Assembly: GCA_009602725.1 (NCBI GenBank)
Contig: WELB01000063.1
Span: 551,660-580,714 of the forward strand
Reading direction: 5' to 3'
Source of the DNA: Spirogloea muscicola
Taxonomy: Eukaryota > Streptophyta > Zygnematophyceae > Spirogloeales > Spirogloeaceae
Length of the DNA: 29,055 bases
Made by a program: the position numbers and the translations under genes. Below the pieces are notes generated by a model, which was given only the letters and a program-made list of their open reading frames with translations, was not told where the DNA came from and searched no databases. Numbering within the stretch: the stretch's first letter is position 1; the number at the start of each line of letters is the position of its first letter. Shown here piece by piece: positions 6,275 to 29,055 of this stretch.

Positions 6275-6765
6275 CTCCACTTATCACGGCCCCGAGGACA
6301 GTCAGGCCCCACCCCCCTCCTGGCTGGCCTTTACAGCCGCGCTTTCTATATCAGCAGCCGCATTCGTCTCCCTCCTACCAGCCGCAATCGACACTTGCGG
6401 CTTTATGGGTCCTCGCTTCCATACCCTACTTGTGAGCATTGCAAGTGGGATATGCTCGACTTGTATGCTTCCAGCTCAGATGGGCATGCCGGCAGCCTAC
6501 TTGTCATTCTTGCGACGTCGAGTTTCAGCTTTTCTGCAGTGAGCTCAGGCTCATGCGTTGCATCGGAAAGCTGGTCGAGCCTTAGCTGGTAGCTCAAGAG
6601 CTTGTCGCTTGCCGTCCGTTATTCGGGCATCAATTAGCGACCTCTATGTGCTGACTCGTGGTTACTGAGCGGGTCAGCTTAGCAGCAGGTGACGTACATT
6701 TGTCAGTGTGCTTGCCTTCGTACTTGGCCACACAGGCCCTACATCTCTTTATACACACTCCTTTC
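6275..6765 (+). mobile_element. Tandem unit A: 3'-end copy of the orphan repeat element, one nonsense codon
   Basis: First of two adjacent direct copies of about 490-498 bp. The coding frame runs through a hydrophobic segment (WLAFTAALSISAAAF), then MPAAYLSFLRRRVSAFLQ, and meets TGA at 6540-6542. Beyond it the same frame resumes with a Gln-Ala-x-Ala-Leu-His and Lys-Ala-Gly-Arg-Ala block and ends in ISDLYVLTRGY with TGA at 6666-6668. The stop sits in a hairpin (6652-6676). The 3' flank holds TTGCCTTCGTACTTGGCC. No known family was recognised. Unit B has CGA where this copy has TGA, so the break looks like a point mutation. Confidence 0.6.
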
Positions 6766-7259
6766 CTCCACTCATCACGGCCCCGAGAGAGTCAGGCCCC
6801 ACCCCCCTCCTGGCTGGCCTTTACAGCCGCTCTTTCTATATCAGCAGCCGCATTCTTCTCCCTCATACCAGCCGCAATCGACAATTTCGGCTGCATGGGT
6901 CCTCGCTTCCATACCCAGCTCGAGAACATTGCAAGTCTGGGATATGCTCGACTTGAGGATATGCTTCCAGCTGAGATGGGCATACCGGCAGCCTACTTGT
7001 CATTCTTGCGACGTCGAGTTTCAGCTTGTCTGCAGCGAGCTCAGGCTCATGCGTTGCATCAGAAAGCTGGTCGAGCCTTTGCTGGTAGCTCAAGAGCTTG
7101 TCGCTTGCCGTCCGGTATTGCCGTCCGGGCATCAGCGACCGCTATGTGCTGACTCGTGGTTACTGAGCGGGTCAGCTTAGCAGCCGGTGATTTACAATTG
7201 TCAATGTGCTTGCCTTTGTACTTGGCCACACGGCCCTACATCTCTTAATACGCACTCCA
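6766..7259 (+). mobile_element. Tandem unit B: second copy of the orphan element 3' end, frameshifted near its C-terminus
   Basis: Direct repeat of unit A with an offset of about 491 bp at the start and 498 bp at the end. Its frame reads through the LQRAQAHALHQKAGRAF block, which unit A has broken. A short insertion (TTGCCGTC region, about 7118-7128) then shifts the frame and gives a premature stop at 7150-7152. The DNA still contains the SDRYVLTRGY reading with TGA at 7164-7166 and the hairpin at 7150-7174. Together the two units suggest a shared ancestor with an intact frame. The hydrophobic stretch FTAALSISAAAFFSLIPAA may be a membrane segment or chance. Confidence 0.6.
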
Positions 7260-7269
7260 TTTACTTCTC

Positions 7270-7497
7270 CAAGCCCGCCAGATAGGCGGCCGTAGCGGCA
7301 CGGCGGCGCCCGGCATGGCGCGTCGCGGCGCTGGTCGCCGCCGTGACCAGGCTCGCCGCCGCCTCCGGCATCCCGCTCCCGCTGCTCCTGGCCGTCGCCT
7401 GCGAGTGTCGGGACGCCGCCGTTGGTGGCCTGCCCCAGCCCTCTGCCGGCGCCGCCGGGGCCTCCTCTTTCAAGAGCACAGATGGCCTCCGGGCTAA
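7270..7497 (+). other. GC-rich island with coding-like frame, origin unknown
   Basis: Abruptly GC-rich sequence directly downstream of unit B. One + frame without an ATG stays open from about 7285 to TAA at 7497-7499 and reads as Ala/Leu-rich, protein-like sequence (RVAALVAAVTRLAAASGI, then PLPLLLAVACECRDAA). Other frames and the minus strand are also open, as expected at this GC content, so coding is not shown. It could be a captured host exon, part of the element's ORF, or compositional noise. The next 800 bp to 8.3 kb show only weak frames, such as 7787-8131, with no recognisable domain. Confidence 0.25.
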
Positions 7498-8329
7498 TTA
7501 AGCAATACCTGCCATTACTCCGCCGCTGCTCGGACGGTTCCTGCCATTGCTCGTCAAGGGGGCACACCACTTGAGGCGCGTTATGCTTTTCTTTGATCTA
7601 CTTTGTGGGCTACTTTCAGCTCGCGTGCTGCAGGATGGGATTGGGCAGGTATCACTTGAGGCACGTGCAGATAGGGTCTACTCCCTGACCAGAGCTGGCT
7701 TGGAGGAGCCGTGCTTGTGACTTCAACCACACTAAGCGGGTGCATGCTCGCCTCATACATCCACGTGTGCGGCAACCTCAACATGCTTGTCGGATAGACA
7801 CAAATGGGTCACTGACGGTCTCATGCACGTCAATCACCCGGAGCTGCGCGCAACATCACGGCTTTTTGAGAGGCATAAATTGGGCCAGATAGGTACTACA
7901 AGCATCTCGAGGGGCGCGAAGGTGGGCCCAGGGCTCGTGGGCTATATGAAAGCACAAAAAACTCCCGAAGCCCATGTACTCCTCTCGTGCGCTCCGACCC
8001 ATTTGCCGGCCAGGCTGACACCTCGTCTACAGCTGAACCACGCCAGGAGTGGCCATCATATGATGGTTGAGGTTGTACTTGGCAGCTCCTTACCTCCCAG
8101 CTGCCCGTCAGATCTCCTACCTACATTATAAAGCTTTTCAAACCAAGGCGCCCTCGTCTCCCCTTCAATGACATCCTTCGCAACACGTTCAATCCACATT
8201 AGCTTACGGGACTGTTGTTACTAGACCGGGTCGTGACAACTTGTGACCACCTCACGCACCCAACGCACTGCCAAGGCCACGAGGACCTCTTTCCAGTTCC
8301 CAGACGAGGCAGTCGGAGACTTATCTCTT

Positions 8330-9280
8330 GACGCTTCCGGCCCTTCAGTTGTTTGCTCATTCTATTCTGGTAGCCTTTCACAGCCAGGGCCCGTCCTTGT
8401 AGAATCTTGTTTTCCTTTTATCAATTGTGTAGATGCGTGGTTTCCATTCTCTGGCCACTTCAGAGATGATACATTTCTCTTTTTGCTGGCCTTTCATAGT
8501 CATCACCCCTTCTTCAAGACCAGCTTCTGACGGAGCAGGCCACTGGCTTCCATGACTGTCCTTCGGTCTTAGCCTGTCGGGGCCGTTTAGGCTCACTCGT
8601 CGGTACTGGAATTGCCCTTCAGTGTGCTTTCGCCCTGTTACCTTAGCACCTCTTAGCCTAGGGCTTCAGCTTGGATAGCCCATCACATTGTGCACTGGTG
8701 TATCCCCAACTGCTGTACTGGCTCGCCTTGACCTCCCTTTCATCCATGCGCACCGTGTGCCTTTATCTAGACTAGTATCCTGCTTTCTGCGCCACCCGGC
8801 CCTTTCAGACATTGTCCATTGCTTTGGGCTGGCCTCTCACAGCCATTGCTGCCAATCTGGAAGAGCTGTTTCACTTTGTCTTGTGTCGGAAGGAAGGGCC
8901 GGGAGAAGGGGGGGTGTAATAAGTCTTATGCAAGTCTTATTCTTATAAGCGATATAAGTAAGTGCTATAATTTTTAGCACTTAGTACCTTGCTTTCTGCG
9001 CCATCCGGCTCCTTGTCCATTCCTTTGGGCTGGCCTCTCACAGCCACCAGTCAATTGGGCCGCGCTTTCTCTCATAAGTGTTGTTCCGGCCGGCGGGGGC
9101 CCACACGCATAATTTACAGACATCCGCAAGCCGCACGAGGTCGGGCCGCCTGCTGGCGGAGAAATAACTCCACGGCCGTGGGCACACACTCCCCCTCCTT
9201 ATCCGAAAATCCTTCGTACGTTCTTTTGTGGGCTGGCCTCTCACAGCCATTGCCTTACATTGGAAAAGCTGTGTTCTAAT
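8330..9280 (+). repeat. Series of repeat cores, + orientation
   Basis: Cores occur at about 8365-8395, 8480-8525, 8805-8870, 8995-9060 and 9205-9275. The last three have the clear form GGGCTGGCCTCTCACAGCC. Two are preceded by a CCTTGTCCATT-like box. The copy at 8995-9060 is followed by CCAGTCAATTGGGCCGCGCTTTCT, a secondary motif seen elsewhere (6080-6100, 9420-9440, 13600-13615, and 15068-15090 in reverse). The region is otherwise without genes. Confidence 0.6.
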
Positions 9281-9514
9281 ATCAGCAGCCGCGGTCTACT
9301 TTCTTCCTGGCGGTTACAGCGCGTCGGCCAGCGTCTCGTCGTAGGCCCCGCCCTTCACACCTCGCGTCACCTCGCCCGGCCTTCCTCGCTCTCTCTGTGG
9401 CCCTCACCAACGCTAGAAAGCGCGGCCAAATTGACTGGTGGAGCTACTACACGCTCCTATCTTGCCGCGGCGCGTCCCGGCCTCCGCTAACATAGTCATG
9501 AAATCCCTCTGTAG

Positions 9515-28262: not shown

Positions 28263-28271
28263 TAGAGAGAA

Positions 28272-28662
28272 GGGCTCGCCCATTGAGGATAGGGGCTGGG
28301 AAAAGCCACCCACAAATGAATGAACAAAGTACGACAAGGGGCCAGGGGAAGCACTAAGAAAAGCAAGCACAAGAAGACAATCTAAGCAGCTACGAAGCAC
28401 TCAGTAACCCCTGCTAAGCAGCCTCAGGTCAGAGAAACTTGGCTCCTGGAAGCGGGTCCCCTGGCCAGAAGCAGCCAGAGGCAGCAGCGAGGAAGGGCTC
28501 GCCTGACCTGAGGCTGCTTAGCAGGGGTTACTGAGTAATACGTAGCTGCTTTGTTTCTTGTTGTGCTTGTTTTTCTTAGCGCATCCCCTGGCCCCCTTCT
28601 CGTGCTTTGTTCCTTCTCTTTTGGGCTGGCTTTTCCAGCCCCTATCCTCAATGGGCGAGCCC
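28272..28662. repeat. Large foldback: inverted repeat with arms of about 160 bp
   Basis: The left arm 28272-28432 and the right arm 28504-28662 are near-perfect reverse complements around a 71-nt loop. Each arm holds one SDLRLLSRGY end and one core of the TTTTCCCAGCCCC subtype. The right arm is itself followed by a shorter inverted copy (28667-28703). Confidence 0.75.
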
Positions 28663-28703
28663 TCCCCTCGCCCGTTGAGAATAGGGGCTGGAAAAGCCAG
28701 CCC
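28623..28703. repeat. 37-bp-arm hairpin
   Basis: The arms 28623-28659 (beginning GGGCTGGCTTTTCCAGCCCC) and 28667-28703 (ending AGGGGCTGGAAAAGCCAGCCC without its first base) differ at only two positions; the loop is 7 nt. Complementarity continues outside at about 28796-28850 (AACAAAGTACGAGAAGGGGG, CCAGGGGAAGCGCTAAG) after an interruption of about 92 bp. Confidence 0.85.
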
Positions 28704-28874
28704 TACAGAGAGAGAAGGCGCGCGGTGCGCATGAAATTGAAAGGGAGGCCAATTCTGCCTTACAAATGTCCTGTTAACTGGTTAATGAGCTGCCTAAAAG
28801 AGAATGAACAAAGTACGAGAAGGGGGCCAGGGGAAGCGCTAAGCGAAGGCTCTTCCGGCACGCAGGTGCAGCGC

Positions 28875-28922
28875 GCGCGAGAGAGAGAGAGAGAGAGAGA
28901 GAGAGAGAGAGAGAGAGAGAGA
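28875..28922. repeat. (GA)n microsatellite
   Basis: Nearly pure GA repeat of over 20 units preceded by GCGCGC. Open frames over it on both strands are artefacts of composition. Confidence 0.95.
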
Positions 28923-28954
28923 GCTCTTTTGCCACACCATCGCCCGTCGCTTCC

Positions 28955-29055
28955 ATTGGGTTGCATATTATAGAATGCGGCTCTCACTTAGTTTGCAGCG
29001 CTCGCAAGCATTGGCTCTTCATCAACGTGCAGGGCGCGCTCTGAGTCAGGCCTCC
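28955..29055 (+). mobile_element. Orphan-element coding copy cut by the window edge
   Basis: The frame from 28963 reads VAYYRMRLSLSLQRSQALAL and HQRAGRALSQAS, closely matching the 24.6 kb copy. It continues beyond the window, where the LTRGY-type end would be expected about 30-40 codons on. Confidence 0.6.

Follow-up and report, generated by a model that had tools for sequence, protein, structure and literature searches.

Dispersed long interspersed elements (LINEs) with a restriction-like endonuclease (RLE) are known elsewhere, Rex6 and EhLINE being examples, and Dualen/RandI of Chlamydomonas carries an RLE-like nuclease plus an apurinic/apyrimidinic endonuclease (APE). PMC5678591 describes RLE LINEs as usually site-specific, and PMC3747384 and PMC8226300 name L1, RandI/Dualen and RTEX as LINEs of green algae. 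The L1 LINE Zepp and its Zepp-like relatives in Chlorella, Coccomyxa and Chlamydomonas are presented in PMC8226300 as self-nesting and present mostly as 3' ends through 5' truncation. Here we discuss a stretch of 29,055 nucleotides from Spirogloea muscicola (contig WELB01000063.1, our C63:551660-580714, in a genome of 153 Mb and 471 contigs), referred to below as the window, in which a short peptide ending of the type SDLRLLTRGY-stop recurs. We are confident that this peptide is the C-terminus of the single open reading frame (ORF) of a dispersed and self-nesting group of LINEs (non-long-terminal-repeat retrotransposons), probably of the RLE type.

The group is like the R2 LINEs in having a single ORF, along which putative N-terminal finger motifs, a reverse transcriptase (RT), a motif resembling the knuckle and RLE-like residues follow one another as in R2. 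R2 proteins are the best solved RT matches of two long genomic copies, L080 and L090. It is unlike R2 in being dispersed and nested at differing targets, where R2 uses a single rDNA site, and in the deviating knuckle spacing and PD motif. The APE nuclease of Dualen has no counterpart in the 1335-residue ORF of L090, the one full-length copy read, in which Pfam gave no AP-endonuclease family with E up to 1, and the group, judged by this copy, has a single ORF without an APE nuclease. It is comparable to Dualen/RandI in that the latter is a LINE group of green algae with non-poly(A) 3' repeats (PMC3747384, PMC8226300). The self-nesting and the predominance of 5'-truncated 3' ends are as in Zepp (PMC8226300), but Zepp is of the L1 group, in which the 3' repeat is poly(A) (PMC3747384), whereas here there is a TTCTT-like tail and no APE domain, and the copies in the window adjoin host-gene exons. 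In contrast to the typical RLE LINEs of PMC5678591, the group has no fixed target site.

No description of an RLE-only LINE in green algae was found in the literature searched, which gave partial coverage and did not include Repbase. The LINE reading accounts for much of the repeat content of the window and removes an apparent orphan protein, this being a known kind of element and not an unknown protein. If the RLE reading is true, the group is an added case of an RLE LINE that spreads with no fixed target, and target choice would be directly measurable from its many nested insertions, whose empty sites survive in other copies.

The peptide and its long genomic copies

A six-frame scan of the whole window with the pattern [SP]D[LVMR]x1-2L[TS]R[GN], derived from the list of copies in a preliminary description of this DNA, gave 12 matches, 7 on the plus and 5 on the minus strand. 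In 100 copies of the window generated by a first-order Markov model the mean was 0.01 and the maximum 1. Because the pattern was composed after the list was known, this control demonstrates its rarity and is not an independent discovery. All 11 copies named in that description are among the 12 matches, and the remaining one, at 483 (minus), lies beyond the range that it covered. Its count of at least fourteen is fair once the decayed copies from tblastn or fuzzy search are included (5379-5432 plus, and 25197 plus, which is the tail of a split peptide copy), the upstream block LQRS.AHALH.RAGRA is indeed common to the longer copies, and the dispersal on both strands is real.

The peptide had also been called an orphan, with no known RT recognised in it. 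Neither statement survives the reading of longer copies, as elsewhere in the genome the peptide ends long RT-bearing frames, in which RVT_1 and an R2-like RT are visible. With each of two 45-residue queries from the window all 150 of the 150 scored candidates matched (first-look candidates 15,668 and 15,571); a longer C-terminal query, with 150 scored of 21,163 first-look candidates, led to gap-free loci; these first-look totals are not copy counts. L080 has a gap-free frame of 833 aa that terminates in SDLRLLTRTY. L090 has a frame of 1338 aa with no N in it, terminating in SDLRLLSRGY, which is one of the variants listed originally, and its start codon is 158 nt downstream of the 3' end of another copy. 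The Pfam family RVT_1 is found in both (E 7e-18 in L080 and 8.5e-16 in L090). Among solved chains the top matches are two R2 retrotransposon proteins for L080 (E 6e-5 and 8e-5) and three for L090 (E 7e-7 to 1e-6), followed, for L080 only, by an RNA-directed DNA polymerase (0.06) and LINE-1 ORF2 (0.11-0.27). In L090 there are also two CX2CX12H motifs that resemble fingers, one at frame residue 105 and one at 304. The peptide is almost certainly the C-terminus of a LINE ORF.

A search with the RT part of L080 (147 scored of 1,470 first-look candidates) gave 18 copies, L090 among them, that all score 398.9 bits and whose open frames measure 1142-1403 aa; the equal scores suggest near-identical copies, and are no proof of it. 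Giant 'open frames' of up to 7291 aa were rejected, being runs of N read as X in all three that were examined (L011, L020, L046). Ten of the RVT_1 matches listed score 139-140 bits and lie in frames of 1172-1237 aa. L077, L078 and L079 have an identical 1003-residue stretch of a polyprotein resembling that of long-terminal-repeat retrotransposons (RT to integrase-like).

The region behind the reverse transcriptase

Behind the RT the order is WLQALP, CECG...H..C, A-A-H-D, R-V-D-L-V x14 D-V, K-E-L-K-Y and G-A-R-W, with H-D and G-x-x-W present. PMC5678591 gives for RLE LINEs two helices split by LP, a CX2-3CX7-8HX4C knuckle, RH at the first helix, a variant of PD-(D/E)XK in which the lysine is the first K of KX2KY, and GXW. 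Judged by motifs, the order in our group agrees with that account, and the first K of KX2KY is present in 10 of 10 covering rows. The element is likely to be an RLE-type LINE, an assignment made by motif and not by fold or family search.

There are several points that count against this assignment. The knuckle spacing is CX1CX12HX3C rather than the published CX2-3CX7-8HX4C, the PD motif has V or A for P (VD/AD-x14-D), and there is GX2W instead of GXW, all by comparison with PMC5678591. KX2KY is exact in only 5 of the 10 covering rows, the finger motifs of L090 are under the Pfam cut-off (C2H2, E 0.09-0.39), Pfam is without any match behind the RT in L080 and L090, and a profile of the C-terminal part run against solved structures gave no R2 or RLE chain. 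The top match of that profile, a TAL effector (E 6e-20), was rejected as a composition artefact, each repeat scoring only about 2-9 bits and the total being summed over repeats, and a match to HSP60 at E about 1 was rejected as chance.

Such deviating residues, and a nuclease unconfirmed by fold or family search, are what speaks for a LINE that is not of RLE type, in which the region behind the RT would be a linker without nuclease and the nuclease would be elsewhere; we consider this rather unlikely, as Pfam has no AP-endonuclease across the whole L090 ORF, the RLE residue order is kept together with the first K of KX2KY, and among RTs of solved structure R2 comes closest.

Truncation, insertion and selection

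The copies begin at varying points of one colinear element and have their 3' end in common. Those in the window are 5'-truncated 3' ends from several lineages, mostly dead 3' fragments. Blastn with the 3' untranslated regions (UTRs) of six lineages locates 34 places in the window, of which 18 are on the plus strand and 16 on the minus strand, with 2894 bp in total, and none in the reversed window. Together with the tblastn coding pieces these make the LINE group one of the main constituents of the window. In one lineage the bases after the shared end GCCACTTC are T in 93%, T in 77%, C in 67% and T in 63% of 115 distinct 3' ends.

Insertions were identified by setting copies nested in other copies against uninterrupted ones; 41 remained once inserts lacking the family tail had been discarded. 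An earlier count of 64 junctions (23 with at least 4 bp) was set aside, as some insertions were double-counted and ends without the family tail were included. Duplications of 4-18 bp flank 21 of the 41, 16 of them exact and 16 of at least 6 bp, and a further 6 insertions have duplications of 2-3 bp, duplications of 2-4 bp having had no chance control. The remaining 14 are without duplication, which does not favour the LINE reading, although 11 of these are based on a single empty-site match. The first base of the 21 duplications is C in 11, T in 8, and G and A in one each. TTCT seems to be largely part of the tail of the element, because it is frequently missing from the displayed empty sites. 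The insertions are nested in many different sequences, and not in one 28S rDNA site. An example in the window is the 24.9-kb copy, nested in a VLTRGY-lineage copy between exact 12-bp duplications (Table 1); it consists of codons, then a 3' UTR, then a second truncated 3' UTR. The 112-bp tandem is one truncated 3' UTR following the other. A palindromic arrangement was rejected, the copies being simply in opposite orientation, with 24119-24204 a minus-strand 3' UTR.

There is a run of 294 consecutive T at 24204-24497, interrupting a 3' UTR of the repeat group. The flanks of the run repeat CAGCAAA, and locus L002 (1675 on) has an uninterrupted version. It has the look of a retrotransposon insertion made up of the tail only, or else is an assembly matter.

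For LINEs the established route is target-primed reverse transcription with early stopping. By this route the protein would nick target DNA and prime reverse transcription at the nick from the 3' end of its own RNA, and an early stop of synthesis would leave many copies reduced to 3' ends, made up of the last codons, the stop, about 120-150 nt of 3' UTR and a short TTCTT-like tail. We infer that it operates here, where it fits the truncation, the tail, and duplications that are short and of variable length; that the protein is active as a nuclease and recognises the 3' UTR is inferred with it. The recognition is a guess: a hairpin-like word, GGGCTGG...CAGCC, is shared, but covariation is nearly absent (2 of 10 pairs, 6 sequences). 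A tally of such words in the window (105; control mean 42, maximum 59) double-counted strands and was not used.

A second possible hairpin lies at the stop codon. In one VLTRGY sub-branch (25189-25230, 6649-6680, 7147-7178) the LTR codons of the peptide pair with bases past the stop, the arms being TTGACCCG/CGGGTCAA and CTGACTCG/CGGGTCAG, with one pair altered on both sides. Pairing within copies was 6.8 for 14 VLTRGY copies (4.3 cross-lineage, 4.3 shuffled) and 5.5 for 35 LLTRN-type copies (4.4 cross-lineage, 3.5 shuffled). For 14 LLSRGY copies it equalled the cross-lineage control (5.3), and for 44 LLTRGY copies it was 4.8, below the control of 5.1. As these two types fail to exceed the control, the stop-codon hairpin was rejected as a general feature.

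Many copies are short 3' ends, and places with the 3' UTR only are common (34 in the window), as would be so for SINE-like (short interspersed element) non-autonomous retroposons that have a LINE 3' end and are spread by LINE machinery, the peptide codons merely being carried; but the 5' ends vary among the sampled copies with no shared head (a genome-wide head search was not made) and ARAGORN found no tRNA-like gene in the window, and we regard such an origin as highly improbable.

The protein has been kept between lineages. Between L090 and L080, compared over 745 codons, 181 first, 143 second and 396 third codon positions differ. Two of the 35 comparisons printed concerned non-homologous parts and are left out (L085rt-L085rle, L005-L051rt), and in 28 of the remaining 33 the ratio of nonsynonymous to synonymous rates (dN/dS) is 0.087-0.377, with 26 of the 28 at or below 0.213; 5 of the 33 are saturated, and many dS values exceed 1. 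In 47 truncated LLTRN-lineage copies, sites departing from the majority of their column number 52/23/140 at the three codon positions, as expected for inheritance from coding sources, with the proviso that these copies were picked by protein similarity, which biases shared differences to third positions. The singletons, which are less affected, number 33 and fall 11/9/13 over codon positions, 11 being synonymous and 22 not. The source elements are under selection and the inserted copies drift. The preliminary description had taken the peptide to be of coding origin, kept as protein while the DNA diverges, and to be otherwise a by-product of a non-coding repeat if extended copies showed no longer frame and substitutions were even over codon positions. 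Its coding interpretation is upheld, with longer upstream frames found genome-wide and uneven substitutions between lineages. A non-coding repeat open by chance can be dismissed, for while there is conservation of bases about the stop codon as well, with a hairpin able to form there in one sub-branch, this reading is already contradicted by the long RT-homologous frames that end in the peptide, and the L090/L080 differences also speak against it.

We suggest tentatively, as something possible though doubtful, that a group of RLE-only LINEs of the green lineage lost site specificity and inserts where a pyrimidine-led nick pairs with the TTCTT tail, its own 3' ends included. It would in this way have become one of the commonest repeats in a compact genome, several of its lineages having been active recently alongside one another.

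Features of the window and its neighbouring exons

The copies and related features are listed in Table 1. The fragment at 6862..7163 is a near-duplicate of that at 6372..6665, with blocks 91-96% alike (direct repeats D8, D9, D12).

Table 1. Copies of the LINE group and associated features in the window
Feature	Position	Strand	Evidence
Decayed C-terminal copy, outside the range first described	457..519	-	pattern scan and tblastn/fuzzy search
Decayed C-terminal copy	5379..5432	+	tblastn/fuzzy search
C-terminal ORF fragment, VLTRGY lineage, one in-frame stop	6372..6665	+	tblastn, L090 and L080 frames, 37-39% identity
C-terminal ORF fragment, VLTRGY lineage	6862..7163	+	tblastn; direct repeats D8, D9, D12
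C-terminal codons SDMHVLTRGY and stop	14553..14585	+	pattern scan, ORF list
C-terminal codons KGGQSFPATSYSDLMLLTRGY at 14981-14919, 3' UTR matches at 14670-14918	14670..14981	-	
3' UTR without codons, LLSRGY lineage; one of the 34 UTR places	15351..15463	+	blastn
Older frame-broken piece, region behind RT	21855..22208	+	tblastn with L080, 34-49% identity
C-terminal codons ...NYSDLLLLTRGY	23665..23757	-	tblastn, 68% identity to L080
C-terminal codons LQRSQAHAVH...NYSDLRLLTRGY	23900..24031	+	tblastn, 77% identity to L080
Target-site duplication, left copy CTTTATGTATTG	24665..24676	+	exact match to 25189-25200; empty site at other loci
Inserted 5'-truncated copy, LLTRN lineage	24677..25188	+	C-terminal codons 24677-24922, 94% identity to L080
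Target-site duplication, right copy 25189-25200, then remainder of interrupted VLTRGY-lineage copy with stop	25189..25303	+	includes direct repeat D6
C-terminal codons ...ISDLHVLTRGY	25330..25398	+	pattern scan and tblastn/fuzzy search
Decayed copy of VLTRGY-type 3' end	25504..25618	+	direct repeat D6, 60%
C-terminal codons, LLSRGY lineage (lineage of L090)	28137..28259	-	tblastn, 71% identity to L090
C-terminal codons, LLSRGY lineage	28404..28490	-	tblastn, 72% identity to L090
C-terminal codons PDLRLLSRGY and 3' UTR, LLSRGY lineage	28502..28663	+	pattern scan, UTR blastn
C-terminal ORF fragment, truncated by window end	28921..29055	+	tblastn, 55% identity to L090

Three exons with Pfam matches were also noted. 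That at 16144-16449 has a NAC domain (NAM, E 1.7e-14) and is followed at 17925-19136 by a glutamine-rich open frame of 403 aa without a Pfam match; that at 3792-4178 matches glycosyltransferase 61 (E 8.7e-7), and that at 25808-26275 matches DUF2358 barely past the cut-off. The NAC and glycosyltransferase 61 exons suggest a genome of the green lineage. Two tandem 43-bp units, 93% alike, are present at 16894-16979.

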